Part shown: piece by piece, positions 59,550 through 64,000 of the stretch
How the letters are laid out: each line of letters begins with the position of its first letter
Position numbering within the stretch: position 1 is the first letter of the stretch
Origin: Phycisphaeraceae bacterium
GTDB lineage: Bacteria; Planctomycetota; Phycisphaerae; Phycisphaerales; SM1A02
Assembly: GCA_019636755.1 (NCBI GenBank)
Contig: JAHBWZ010000005.1
Location: 248,001-312,000, forward strand
Direction of reading: 5' to 3'
Length of the DNA: 64,000 nt
Translations under genes and position numbers: made by a program
The notes under the pieces: model-generated
Told to the model about the DNA's origin: nothing
What the model saw: the letters and a program-made list of their open reading frames with translations, nothing else
Database searches by the model: none

Positions 59550-60878
59550 ATGAGAATCCTGCACGCATGCGGAATCGCTGTTCTTGTGATGTCGACCGCG
59601 GTGTCGACGGTCCGCGCGGCCACGCTGTATTTCACCGCCGTGCTGGAGGGCAGCCAGGAGGTTCCGCCGAACGGCTCCACGGCGACCGGATCCGCGCTCG
59701 TCACGCTGAACACGGCGACGAACGCCCTCAACTGGCACATCGCGTGGAGCGGACTGTCCGCCACCGCGGCGCACTTCCACGGTCCGGCGACGCCCGGCGT
59801 CAACGCCGGCGTGCAGGTGAACATCGGGACAGCGAATCCGAACATCGGCAGCGCGTCGCTCTCCGCGGTGCAGGCGCAGCAGCTGATCGACGGCCTGTGG
59901 TACATCAACGTGCACACGGCGGCCTTCCCCGGCGGCGAGATCCGCGGTCAGTGCAACGCGGCGCCGGCCGGCTTCGGATTCCGGATCAACGAGATCCGGA
60001 TCGACGAACCATCCACGGACAACAGCGAGTACTTCGAGATCCTCGGTCCGGCGAGTACACCGCTGACCGCCCTGCACTACCTCGTGATCGGGGACGGATC
60101 GTCGGGACTGGCTTCCGGCGTCATCGAGGCCGTGGTCCCGCTCGGCGCGATGTCCACGGATGCCGGCGGCCTGGTCGCGGTCGCGGAGAGCACGATGGCG
60201 GTCCCGGGTGGTCCGAACATCGTCATCCTCCCCGGCACGAATCCGCTCAACTTCGAGAACAACGACAACGTCACGCACCTTCTGGTGTTCGGCTTTACCG
60301 GCACGGATGGACAGGACCTGGACCTGGATGACGACGGCGTCCTCGACGTGACGCCGTGGTCCGCCGTGCTGGATGCGGTGGGCATGGTCCTGCAGATGCC
60401 CCCCGTCTCGACCGAGTGGGCGTATGGTGCGTCCCTGGGCTTCGAGGACGTGGGCCCCGACGGCGTCTTCGTGCCGGGGCACATCTATCGATGCGGGACG
60501 GCGGGGGCGTGGACCATCGGGCCGTTCGATCCGCTGACCGGTGACGACACGCCGGCGCTGGACAACCCGGACTGTGCCCCGGAGCCGACGGGCGCGTGCT
60601 GCCTGTCCGACGGTTCGTGCATGGAGGTCAGCGAGAACGACTGCGTGATCGGACTGGGCGGCTCGTACGTCGGCACCGGCGTCGCGTGCGCAGAGGCCGG
60701 CTGCGTGCCGGCGTGTCCCGCCGACTTCAACGGGTCCGGTGACGTCGAATTCGGCGACCTGCTCATCATGCTCTCGGTCTGGGGGCCCTGCCCCGGATGT
60801 GATGAGGATCTCGATGGCAGCGGCACGGTCGACTTCGCCGACCTGCTGATCCTGCTCTCGGTCTGGGGTCCGTGCTGA
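59550..60878 (+). CDS. Secreted CHRD-domain protein with tandem C-terminal WGPC-type repeats
   Basis: 442 aa. Signal peptide ~1-24 (MRILHACGIAVLVMSTAVST). A CHRD domain (~25-133) has TLYFTAVLEGSQEVPPNGS, TAAHFHGPATPGVNAG and WYINVHTAAFPGGEIRGQ. Then a lamin-tail-like beta-sandwich (~140-310: FRINEIRIDEPSTDNSEYFE), a Cys-rich TGACCLSDGSC module (~348-387), and two EF-hand-like units, DFNGSGDVEFGDLLIMLSVWGPC and DLDGSGTVDFADLLILLSVWGPC, at ~390-442. GGGAG precedes the ATG and TATGCT at 59464 may be the -10. Surface protein of unknown role. Confidence 0.92.
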   Translation: MRILHACGIAVLVMSTAVSTVRAATLYFTAVLEGSQEVPPNGSTATGSALVTLNTATNALNWHIAWSGLSATAAHFHGPATPGVNAGVQVNIGTANPNIGSASLSAVQAQQLIDGLWYINVHTAAFPGGEIRGQCNAAPAGFGFRINEIRIDEPSTDNSEYFEILGPASTPLTALHYLVIGDGSSGLASGVIEAVVPLGAMSTDAGGLVAVAESTMAVPGGPNIVILPGTNPLNFENNDNVTHLLVFGFTGTDGQDLDLDDDGVLDVTPWSAVLDAVGMVLQMPPVSTEWAYGASLGFEDVGPDGVFVPGHIYRCGTAGAWTIGPFDPLTGDDTPALDNPDCAPEPTGACCLSDGSCMEVSENDCVIGLGGSYVGTGVACAEAGCVPACPADFNGSGDVEFGDLLIMLSVWGPCPGCDEDLDGSGTVDFADLLILLSVWGPC

Positions 60879-60990
60879 CCTGACGCAGGATCCGGCCCTT
60901 CTGCGCGTGCGCGTGCGCCCGCTCGCTCGCTGTTTCTTCGGGGACCACGGTCGGCGTTGCGGTTCCTGGATCCTGTGGATCTCCGTCCGG

Positions 60991-61090
60991 GTGCGCGAGC
61001 GCAGGGGGGGCTGAGGCCCCCCCTGCAACCCCCTTGCGCGCAGGTGGGTGGTGGTGTTCAGCCGGCGCGCGAGTGGTGGTGTCTGCGCGC
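60991..61090. repeat. Hairpin repeat, copy 1
   Basis: Begins GTGCGCGAGC. A perfect 10-bp stem GCAGGGGGGG / CCCCCCCTGC with loop CTGAGG lies at 61001-61026. An outer TGCGCG/CGCGCA pairing (60992 and ~61036) can enclose it. The right part has GCCGGCGCGCGAGTGGTG. Confidence 0.85.
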
Positions 61091-61230
61091 ATTGGGTGCA
61101 CGGTCGCGCGCTGAGGATGTCCGGCGACGACGGCGCGTCCGGCGCCGTGCGTCCGTGCTCGCTCGCTCGATGATTCTCGAATGACCTGGGTTGACGCCAG
61201 GTCTCGATGATCATGCGGTCTTCCGTTTCA

Positions 61231-61328
61231 GTGCGCGAGCGCAGGGGGGCTGAGGCCCCCCTGCAACCCCCTTGCGCGCAGGAGGGCGGCGGTGGTCAGC
61301 CGGCGCGCGAGTGGTGCGCTCTGCGCGC
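61231..61328. repeat. Hairpin repeat, copy 2
   Basis: Same order as copy 1. The inner stem is one pair shorter on both arms, GCAGGGGGG / CCCCCCTGC with the same CTGAGG loop (61241-61264). The outer TGCGCG/CGCGCA pairing is kept. It ends 30 bp before the stop of the MscS-family gene, for which it may be a terminator. Confidence 0.85.
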
Positions 61329-61357
61329 CTCAGGAGCGAAGGGGCGCTTCTGGCGTG

Positions 61358-64000
61358 CTACGCGCCGCCCGACGGGCCGCGCGGCACGGGCTCCGCCGGC
61401 ACGTCCGCCGGGATCGGCACGCCGCCGGGAAGCGTGCGGATGTGCAGGTCGCGCTGCGGGAAGGCGATCTCGATCCCCTTCTCGCGGAAGCGGCGCAGGA
61501 TCGACCGGTGCATGTCGTGCCGCACCGCGACCAGCCGATCGATGGACGGCACGAAGACGCGCAGTTCGAAGTCCAGCGTGCTGTCGCCGAAGCGGCCGAA
61601 GACCACGCTCGGTCCGGGGTCGGTCATGACGTCGGGGTTCGCCCGCGCGACCTCGAGCAGCGTCTCCTCGACCAGCGTGGGATCGGACCCGTAGGACGCG
61701 CCGACCGGGATGACGATCCTGAGCCGCGGATCGGAGAGCGTCCAGTTGATGATCTGGCCCGTGATGAACGACTTGTTGGGGACGATCAGTTCCTTGCGGT
61801 CGAAGTCGAGGATGGTCGTCGCGCGCATCCGGATCTGCGCGACGGTGCCGGAGACGCCATTCACCGTCACGACATCGCCGACGCGGATGGGCCTCTCGGC
61901 GAGGATGATCAGGCCCGAGATGAAATTCGCGAAGATCTCCTGGAGTCCGAACGCCAGTCCGAACGTGAGGGCCGCGGCCAGCCACTGGATGCTGTTCCAC
62001 GTGATGCCGATGGCGTTGAACCCGACGGTGACGCCGAGGATCGTGAGGGCATAGCGCGTGATCGTCGTCAGCGCGTTCCGCGAACCCGCGTCCATCGGGA
62101 GGCGCTGCAGGAGGATCATCTCCATCAGGCCCGGGACGTTGCGGACCGCGGCGATGGTGGCGATCAGCACGAGGAGCGCCACACCCAGGTCGGCCAGCGA
62201 GATCGTCCGCGGCGTGCCGTCCGGTGCGGCGGCATCCGGCGCGCCGCCGGGTCCGGAGAGGCCCGGCACCATCGGCAGGCCGGTGCCCGGCGCCGACCGT
62301 GGCGGTGCATCGGCCGATCCCGCGCGCGGCCGGTCGGTCGTGTCCGTGGCCGGATCGACGGCGCCCGCGGCCGGCGTGCCGTTCGTCCCCGAGGGCCGGT
62401 GGAGCAGTCGCGTGAACGCCTGCGTGGCGGGCGACTCCATCGCGGGCCGGACGACCATGCGCGGATAGAGCTCGACCCGGTCGAGCATCCGCAGCGCGGG
62501 CAGGACCGGGGCCCAGATCGTGTAGAGCACCACGATGATCGCCAGCACGGCCGACGTCCGGATGAGCTGACGGGTGCGCGCGTCCAGCGCGGGGATGTCG
62601 ACGTCGTCCGCCGGCGTGACCGTCGGGACCTCGGTGTCCGGGGCGGGCGGCGCTGCGGCGGCGGCCGCCTCGCGGGCGCGACGGGCCGCTTCGATGGCCA
62701 GTCGGCGCCGTGCGAGCAGCAGCCAGCGCAGCAGCAGCGCGTGCGTGATGACGGCGAGGATGACCAGCCAGAGCGAGGCTTCGAATCGGCGCTCGAGCTG
62801 GATCGCCGTGTAGGCGTACCCGGTCCAGGACGCGATGGCGAGCGCGATGGGAATGAGAATCGCGATCGGGTACCACAGGGAGCGCAGCCGGCCTGTCCAA
62901 GACGGTCCGGATCCGTGCAGCCAGTGACCGACGACCGCGCCGGATGGAAGCAGGATGCGCTGGATGCCGATCGCGAGGACGAGCATCGCCCCGATGAACG
63001 CGATGCGGGCGAGATCGGCGGTGACGCCACCCGCCACGCCATCCGCGCCCGGCGCGCTCATGAGCGCCGCACCGGTGCCCAGCGGGAGGATGAGCATCAC
63101 GAGCCAGCGCAGGTGATGCCGCAGCGCACGGATGCTCCCCACCGGCCATCCCAGGTGCGCCTCCGCCAGCCCGCCGCGGCGCAGCACCTGGCGCAGGAAC
63201 GAGAACGGAAGTACGATGACGGCACTGCGCAGGAGTGCATGCTCGGTCGCCGTCACCGGTCCCGGAACGGTCGCCGCCGCGCCGAGCAGGTATCCGGCCG
63301 CGGCCAGCAGCGCGGGAAGCGGCAGGGCGGCCACCACGGTCCATCCGAGCGCCGTGAACGTGTGCCGCATCGCGTCCGTGGACGGGGACTCGGCATGCTC
63401 TCCGGCGAGTCGGATGGCGCGGATCGCGCGCGGCCGAACGAGGACGAGTCCGGCGAGCAGGAGCATGCCCGCCAGGAGCGACAGCGGGCGCTCGCGCGGG
63501 ACGGCAAGCAGGCGCCCGGCGCCCGCACGCCAGGCCGATGCATCCAGCAGCCACGCGCCGGCGTCCCCGATCGCCCGCCAGCCCGGAAGCGGCGCGCCGG
63601 AGGCGCTGCGGACCCAGAAGATGCGCTCCGCGATGAAGGCACGGAACGCCTGCGCGAGGTCCAGCAGTTCCTGCTCCACGACCTCCAGTTCAAGCAGGCG
63701 GTCATGGAGCAGGCGCAGGTCACCGATGGCCTGGTCCAGCACGGTGCGCCGCGATCCCAGCAGTTCGCGGAGGATGGGCTCCAGGTCAGCCGCCTGGCCG
63801 TCGTCGCCGATCTCGGCGCTGTACGCACGGACCTGCGATTCGATGTCGCCGGCCTGCGATCGCTCGTCCTCCAGGAGGATCAGGCGGTACTCGGCGTCGG
63901 CGATCTCGCGCCGCCGGGCCCGCAGGTCCCGGCGGATGAGCGACGGGTCGGGAACGAGTTCGTACTGTCGGATGAGCAGGAGGCCGGTGGCTTCATTCAG
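61358..64000 (-). CDS. Large MscS/MscK-family mechanosensitive channel (N-terminus outside window)
   Basis: 880 residues visible; the frame is open to position 64000, so the start is missing. The visible N-terminal part is a periplasmic coiled coil (RARRREIADAEYRLILLEDE), then about 10 membrane helices and a Pro/Ala/Gly/Thr-rich loop (~525-580), then the MscS core: LTFGLAFGLQEIFANFISGL (pore-lining TM3 and vestibule start), ERPIRVGDVVTVNGVSGTVA and IVPNKSFITGQIINWTLSD. The C-terminal domain has HRSILRRFREKGIEIAFPQR. Layout matches MscK/KefA or YnaI-type channels with extra helices, which open under membrane tension. Confidence 0.93.
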   Translation of the reverse strand: MNEATGLLLIRQYELVPDPSLIRRDLRARRREIADAEYRLILLEDERSQAGDIESQVRAYSAEIGDDGQAADLEPILRELLGSRRTVLDQAIGDLRLLHDRLLELEVVEQELLDLAQAFRAFIAERIFWVRSASGAPLPGWRAIGDAGAWLLDASAWRAGAGRLLAVPRERPLSLLAGMLLLAGLVLVRPRAIRAIRLAGEHAESPSTDAMRHTFTALGWTVVAALPLPALLAAAGYLLGAAATVPGPVTATEHALLRSAVIVLPFSFLRQVLRRGGLAEAHLGWPVGSIRALRHHLRWLVMLILPLGTGAALMSAPGADGVAGGVTADLARIAFIGAMLVLAIGIQRILLPSGAVVGHWLHGSGPSWTGRLRSLWYPIAILIPIALAIASWTGYAYTAIQLERRFEASLWLVILAVITHALLLRWLLLARRRLAIEAARRAREAAAAAAPPAPDTEVPTVTPADDVDIPALDARTRQLIRTSAVLAIIVVLYTIWAPVLPALRMLDRVELYPRMVVRPAMESPATQAFTRLLHRPSGTNGTPAAGAVDPATDTTDRPRAGSADAPPRSAPGTGLPMVPGLSGPGGAPDAAAPDGTPRTISLADLGVALLVLIATIAAVRNVPGLMEMILLQRLPMDAGSRNALTTITRYALTILGVTVGFNAIGITWNSIQWLAAALTFGLAFGLQEIFANFISGLIILAERPIRVGDVVTVNGVSGTVAQIRMRATTILDFDRKELIVPNKSFITGQIINWTLSDPRLRIVIPVGASYGSDPTLVEETLLEVARANPDVMTDPGPSVVFGRFGDSTLDFELRVFVPSIDRLVAVRHDMHRSILRRFREKGIEIAFPQRDLHIRTLPGGVPIPADVPAEPVPRGPSGGA

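Follow-up and report, generated by a model that had tools for sequence, protein, structure and literature searches.

A probable decayed copy of a BIME-like extragenic repeat family in the genome of a Phycisphaeraceae bacterium

Introduction

Two G- and C-rich hairpins stand close together in the gap between two convergent genes of a Phycisphaeraceae bacterium. The locus raises the question of what kind of element the pair belongs to. The original prediction took it for an extragenic palindromic element whose structure is under selection, possibly a terminator or a repetitive extragenic palindrome (REP). Bacterial interspersed mosaic elements (BIMEs) are built from regularly spaced REPs of alternating orientation in a mosaic with other modules, as described in PMC2817692. 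According to the account in PMC3733652, described REP families come mostly from Proteobacteria; the GTAG kind is associated with a single transposase group, and no transposase is known for the CGTC kind. The same account already reports REPs in Planctomycetes, and a further paper bears, by its title and abstract, on such repeats in Planctomycetes or Phycisphaerae (PMC6006769). The window analysed here is the whole 64,000-nucleotide stretch (contig JAHBWZ010000005.1, positions 248,001 to 312,000, assembly GCA_019636755.1). The evidence indicates that the feature is probably a decayed member of a high-copy family of extragenic mosaic repeats that is restricted to the host and works in the manner of a BIME or an inverted REP doublet (REPIN).

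The repeat in the window

Repeat DNA (60902–61341) occupies the convergent gap nearly end to end. The gap is bordered by the stop of a plus-strand gene at 60878 and the stop of a minus-strand gene at 61358, which bears out the proposed location 3' of both genes. Two copies of 105 bp align without gaps at 79% identity and start 238 bp apart. Each contains a two-level hairpin, in which outer arms TGCGCG/CGCGCA enclose a core stem of G and C runs; the cores, G7/C7 in the first copy and G6/C6 in the second, are 240 bp apart, as first described. The hairpin itself is therefore present, and its proposed loop CTGAGG is in fact the loop TGAG plus the closing pair. The pair of roughly 100-bp repeats is likewise real, and the 105-bp repeat is one part of a 414-bp unit, not the whole element. 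The features of the locus are collected in table 1.

Read with nhmmer against the unit model, the window array runs 327–413, 2–173, 340–410 and 2–113. The jump from about 173 to 340, near 61155–61163, marks the loss of the second hairpin of the unit, hairpin B, with its surroundings, and the hairpin search finds no B in the window. With about 166 model positions gone, two A hairpins, 240 bp apart, are all that can be seen. The plus-strand neighbour is a CHRD-domain protein whose C terminus presumably resembles dockerin repeats.

Table 1. Features of the window locus, and full-length IS66 copies in the host genome (the latter in coordinates of the examined stretches).
Feature	Coordinates	Strand	Evidence or remark
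Flanking gene, CHRD-domain protein	59550..60878	+	
Leader segment of unit (model 327–413)	60902..60989	+	nhmmer with 414-position model, 26 bits; begins 24 bp past the stop of the upstream gene
First partial unit (model 2–173)	60992..61163	+	nhmmer, 150 bits, E 1.3e-44
Two-level hairpin A, copy 1; outer arms TGCGCG/CGCGCA enclosing G7/C7 stem	60992..61042	+	
Core stem, copy 1, GCA-G7-CTGAGG-C7-TGC	61001..61026	+	
AACCCC tag at 3' foot of core stem 1	61027..61032	+	read in sequence
Second leader (model 340–410)	61155..61226	+	nhmmer, 32 bits
Second partial unit (model 2–113)	61232..61341	+	nhmmer, 80 bits
Two-level hairpin A, copy 2 (G6/C6); outer arms TGCGCG/CGCGCA	61232..61280	+	
Core stem, copy 2, GCA-G6-CTGAGG-C6-TGC	61241..61264	+	
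AACCCC tag of copy 2	61265..61270	+	read in sequence
Convergent flanking gene, MscS/MscK-type mechanosensitive channel	61358..64000	−	extends beyond the window
IS66 full copy 1	L024:4549-7220		
IS66 full copy 2	L043:4284-6986		
IS66 full copy 3	L050:5161-7815		

Unit and arrays in the host genome

Further genomic copies, on whose existence the original prediction had staked itself, are abundant. Exact matches to the core pattern number 100 in the host genome, split 53 to 47 between the strands; the reversed pattern used as a control has none. With up to three mismatches allowed, 121 places are found, against five for the reversed control. Examination covered 43 stretches, nearly all around core matches and together a tenth of the genome; they omit some of the 121 looser matches, so that the array counts below are lower bounds. 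Scoring covered 40 of 237 first-look candidates and 16 of 270 own-genome candidates in the comparison of 41 genomes.

The family has two hairpin types. Hairpin A reads GCA-G7-CTGAGG-C7-TGC and hairpin B, on the opposite strand, GCA-G6-CTGAAGCG-C6-TGC. The two alternate on opposite strands, with intervals of mostly 223–255 bp from A to B and mostly 158–179 bp from B to A, and 92 of the 100 family hairpins in the examined stretches carry AACCCC at the 3' foot. A consensus of 414 positions was built from 18 A-to-A intervals. The unit is thus about 414 bp long, carries two unlike hairpins in opposite orientation, and occurs singly or in tandem up to about 3.5 times. A search with the unit profile finds at least 53 arrays in the examined stretches and the window, about 27 kb in total, with a median length of 465 bp and a maximum of 1446 bp. 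One nearly solitary A–B copy (model 2–285) lies in stretch L038.

Conservation within the unit is uneven. The alignment comprises 35 of 36 long unit matches; the one omitted, in L046, is a paralogue of that in L053 (83% over 2.1 kb). Mean column identity reaches 0.97 in hairpin A and 0.95 in hairpin B; the two spacers have values of 0.86 and 0.80. The B–A spacer is likewise conserved, and the copied unit is therefore not simply an A–B doublet. These properties bear on a reading as ordinary satellite-like tandem DNA, with its own persistence as sole function, which overlaps with the explanation preferred here. In its favour, the arrays are tandem and unit identity is 0.868 within arrays (10 pairs) against 0.785 between arrays (585 pairs), with some pairs from different arrays reaching 0.938; simple GCGC/GCTC runs near unit junctions fit the same picture. 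The greater conservation of hairpin cores than of spacers, and a strongly non-random position, argue in the other direction, and we consider the satellite reading somewhat unlikely.

Arrays contain, or come within 70 bp of, four of the 40 contig ends (C8 start, L033; C11 end, L034; C13 start, L070; C15 start, L042). The assembly may have broken there, so the true copy number is possibly higher. A further hairpin variant, GCAGGGGGGCTGCGCCCCCCC, with CTGCG in its loop, was seen at C1:511675/511910 and C14:206421/206658/213631 (L076, L072), forming inverted pairs about 235 bp apart at two places. Similar secreted-type proteins sharing the motif VEVITFTEHP(V/L)GTWLDDH adjoin arrays in several copies (L031, L052, L070, L071), and another related gene pair next to an array is common to L040 and L052.

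Predicted folding and stem lengths

The window hairpins fold better than nearly all shuffled sequences: the first reaches z −3.1 as RNA (1 of 200 shuffles as good) and −2.5 as DNA (4 of 200), the second −3.3 as DNA (1 of 200). One complete unit folded as RNA has a predicted energy of −238 kcal/mol (z −3.95, none of 100 shuffles as good). This predicted fold pairs the A arm with the B arm through 44 inter-arm pairs, the outermost being 2–255, and contains no local hairpin A. Isolated A and B hairpins each fold on themselves; for B alone z is −4.3 on one strand and −5.7 on the other. In the RNAalifold consensus of 35 units the tag-to-tag stem is retained and hairpin B forms locally; stem A is unpaired. 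A single strand may fold either as local hairpins A and B or as one stem of about 255 nt, running from tag to tag in the predicted shape of a REPIN.

Selection on this structure is a separate matter. The RNAalifold covariation term is 0.06 kcal/mol, double changes affect 5 of 44 pairs, and the stems are mostly invariant. Because the covariation term is so small, copy-to-copy changes lend selected structure no support, and selection on the long stem is an unproven hypothesis. The original prediction saw such selection in the window itself, where the G and C runs shorten together from seven to six. Run lengths were counted in hairpins fitting a strict pattern (55 A, 45 B). Equal runs occur in 44 of the 55 A hairpins, where 39.9 are expected if the runs are independent (permutation P 0.02, relatedness ignored), and in 41 of the 45 B hairpins, where 39.3 are expected (P 0.09, relatedness likewise ignored). 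The run pairs seen in A are 7/7, 6/7, 7/6, 6/6, 7/8, 6/8 and 5/8, and 11 of the 55 are unequal. Strict co-variation of run lengths is rejected as a rule, the excess of equal runs is slight, and the case for compensating stem length, which comes down to two 6/6 copies, is weak. Unequal runs had been named in advance as grounds for abandoning the prediction; they count against compensation and leave the element standing.

The window gap and a three-unit array were also compared with the Rfam 15 covariance models. No match was obtained at E ≤ 1, and identification with a known structured RNA was rejected.

Position relative to genes

Gene calls are provisional ones from an in-house codon-usage caller; long low-scoring calls were dropped before counting. 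Merging at 250 bp gave 51 arrays for this count, of which ten were set aside (five at a stretch edge, five far from a gene). The 41 classed arrays comprise 20 in convergent, 18 in codirectional and 3 in divergent gaps. For gaps in these stretches that measure 100 bp or more and hold no array, the corresponding numbers are 10, 70 and 26 (Fisher P 6e-7 for the convergent excess and 0.02 for the divergent class). The expectation that copies always lie between convergent genes fails, with 20 of 41 doing so. The 18 codirectional arrays lie a median of 130 bp from the 3' end of the upstream gene, against 511 bp to the next start (Wilcoxon P 3e-4). Hairpin A runs along transcription in 13 of these 18 (P 0.10, not significant), and in 6 of the 20 convergent gaps its direction is that of the nearer gene. 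An overlap of more than 30 bp with a called gene occurs in 5 of 53 arrays, either at the end of the gene or in a call that is short or scores low.

Strong stems, a site 3' of genes and the convergent excess are what would be expected of a bidirectional terminator or mRNA 3'-end element, selected at gene ends and multiplied through its usefulness. The same position is explained equally well by selection against insertion upstream of genes, and multi-unit arrays would be more than termination requires. A scan of 60850–61400 for intrinsic terminators found none where 0.2 are expected in shuffled sequence, a comparison of little power, and the stem is followed by a C-rich tag instead of a T run. 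The suggested terminator thus finds no support as an intrinsic one, and we regard this explanation of the family as unlikely. Under the preferred, BIME-like reading, arrays would persist 3' of stop codons, where insertion does least harm, and they may protect mRNA 3' ends there.

The search for a transposase

A REP-associated transposase gene had been proposed as something to look for, and none was found linked to the family. The host has a single Y1_Tnp gene, at C17:82123 (L054; L074:9855-11660), flanked by its own inverted repeats of 22–23 bp and by short tandem copies of these, all unrelated in sequence to the unit. The layout of these flanking repeats is TIRYT-like.

The gene could nevertheless act from a distance. 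The repeats might form a genuine REP/REPIN system that a Y1 (HUH) transposase mobilises in trans from a gene lacking the repeat at its flanks. REPINs do resemble the family in doublet architecture, in copy number and in position, and the Y1 protein is weakly similar to REP-associated transposases (NF047646, 43.5 bits, with a cut-off of 80). Against this, the inverted repeats of the gene are of another sequence, no unit match lies in the 20 kb around it (L074), and GTAG is absent from all 100 hairpins. A scan for the near-exact AACC-tagged hairpin within at most 1.5 kb of 21 Y1 matches in six genomes found none; three of these stretches were shortened by contig ends and one match was below the family cut-off. 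Movement in trans by such an enzyme therefore seems quite improbable.

Y1 genes of genomes from the same order (L107, L108, L109, L117, L119, L124) have exact inverted repeats of 24–37 nt, all different. Some of these appear self-complementary by eye, and none has the tagged hairpin.

Mosaic modules, duplications and IS66 insertions

Many arrays are accompanied by other repeated DNA. Four modules, M1–M4, were chosen by eye beside arrays, and M1 and M2 were searched genome-wide. M1 occurs at 10 places, 7 of them within 100 bp of an array, and M2 at 11, of which 8 are equally close. The other three places of each lie outside the examined stretches and near no core hairpin among the 100 exact matches. 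M3 has five copies and M4 three, both counted in the examined stretches, which were themselves chosen around arrays.

The ends of long duplications also cluster at arrays. Among 25 long duplications between examined stretches, 22 of 48 ends fall within 100 bp of an array, where random placing predicts 10.4; without three IS66 pairs the figures are 16 of 42 and 8.7. The duplications in this count are not mutually independent. Some arrays may have been copied along with flanking DNA in segmental duplications of this kind. Stretches L029 and L038 share sequence as far as a CATGCGCG junction, which in L029 marks the start of the array. An interpretation of this pair as an occupied and an empty site was rejected: the L038 sequence past the junction is absent after the L029 array, which indicates replacement.

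The IS66 pairs belong to an element of 2.7 kb encoding tnpA, tnpB and tnpC, with three full copies in the genome (table 1) and five short matches (29–115 bp). Each of the three full copies is embedded in an array, and the insertion point within the unit differs among them. Arrays in the examined stretches make up about 4.6% of non-coding DNA, assuming the coding share of the window genome-wide, and at that share the chance of finding all three copies in arrays is about 1e-4. Arrays may double as landing sites for this element. The REP-targeting insertion sequences surveyed by Tobes and Pareja in 2006 belong to the IS3, IS110, IS4, IS256 and IS5 families (PMC1525189), and the word IS66 is absent from the main text of that survey. 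As in the cases described there, every copy of one insertion sequence lies inside extragenic palindromes (PMC1525189). The present case differs in that the element is an IS66 and enters the unit at three different points.

The insertions also bear on whether the unit is a MITE, a non-autonomous transposon bounded by the opposed hairpins A and B and mobilised by a transposase encoded at an unlinked site, for example that of IS66. The arms are indeed opposed, the size is near the 100–400 bp range given for MITEs in PMC3116915, and one A–B copy, in L038, is nearly solitary. The ends of IS66 (GTAAGCG...CGCTTAC) are unlike the unit, and the element lies inside units, with 8-bp target duplications in two of the three copies and none in the third. 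Array ends are heterogeneous, which would also count against a MITE. We judge the MITE reading very unlikely.

Tags and occurrence outside the host

Foot tags distinguish the known REP super-families. GTAG and its complement are found near the stem in none of the 100 hairpins. CGTC lies upstream in 22 of the 55 A hairpins and in 2 of the 45 B hairpins; for its reverse complement GACG the upstream counts are 2 (A) and 21 (B) and the downstream counts 4 (A) and 16 (B). Neither is constant at the stems.

Among the 41 genomes compared, which include no other of the same genus, the unit is confined to that of the host; five others hold one or two short matches each (27–88 bp). In the collection scanned, which may leave out the records of the host itself, one named genome contains the core pattern with its tag: the Phycisphaeraceae metagenome-assembled genome (MAG) JAHBXK010000004.1, at two places. 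Seven hairpins of the form GCAGGGG...CCCCTGC were found in the MAG, all followed by AACC, five of them by a search that did not ask for the tag. Their inner pairs vary, with A-T in some and G-C in others. Another genome of the order, G073, has three hairpins, all tagged, two of which were found without asking for the tag. When the tag is required, one to three matches occur in 6 of 150 other genomes of the order and in 5 of 297 other genomes of the class, with no reversed-control match in either set. The search with the untagged pattern gave 21 hairpins; flanks were read for 13, of which 12 have AACC and one, in G009, does not. The reversed control of this untagged pattern does match in G013 (2 + 2). 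The tagged hairpin is thus rare yet present outside the host, and common descent of these copies would be a conjecture.

A second hairpin type, CCAGGGG...CCCCTGGCAAC, was seen by eye in the MAG (L077, L078, L100) near the GCAGGGGG type, the two having a CAAC tail in common. Viral contigs gave no exact match to the pattern. A plasmid origin was considered and rejected, there being no match.

Comparison with known repeat families

The family has the general properties of REPs, being high in copy number, extragenic and imperfectly palindromic. Like BIMEs, it has two kinds of hairpin, inverted and alternating at regular intervals, is extragenic, numbers some 100 copies and forms a mosaic with other extragenic modules (PMC2817692); REP heterodimers, described in PMC3733652, are similar. 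The scale is different. The host unit is 414 bp long, and its hairpins are spaced at about 170 and 240 bp, whereas units of about 20 to 130 bp are given in PMC3116915, and the host family is tagged with AACCCC, lacks GTAG and has no linked RAYT gene.

Similar agreement and difference are seen with the REPINs of Pseudomonas. There, too, an inverted doublet is predicted to form one long stem, and cores are more conserved than spacers (PMC3116915). The predicted host stem is about 255 nt long, and no RAYT gene flanked by the same repeat, as is typical of GTAG REPs and REPINs, lies beside the family. Compensatory changes are described as common in REPINs (PMC3116915); the host stem, with 5 of 44 pairs doubly changed, has no such covariation support. 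The GTAG and CGTC REPs of Di Nocera (2013) share with the host family a small stem, a tag at its foot and a site 3' of genes in convergent or codirectional gaps, and the CGTC REPs are likewise described without a dedicated transposase (PMC3733652). The host hairpins differ from both super-families in having no constant GTAG or CGTC. Architecture, copy number and position together uphold the proposal of an extragenic palindromic, REP-like element. The family has the architecture of a BIME or REPIN, but it has its own tag, a far longer unit and no linked transposase of the RAYT type.

Spread and significance of the family

Recombination or slippage between units would lengthen and shorten arrays, and such events would explain the missing hairpin B in the window. 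A bolder proposal is that the AACC(CC) foot defines a third class of tagged palindrome, represented here by 414-bp REPIN-like units that are spread by an enzyme other than the known REP transposases, with the arrays serving as landing sites for IS66 and as breakpoints of gene duplication. We put this forward tentatively and think it has a modest chance of being correct.

A BIME-like family that bears another tag, has a unit several-fold longer and lacks a linked transposase would provide a further case for studying how such repeats spread and settle behind genes. With the IS66 copies, all within arrays, the five REP-targeting insertion sequence families of the 2006 survey (PMC1525189) would become six.
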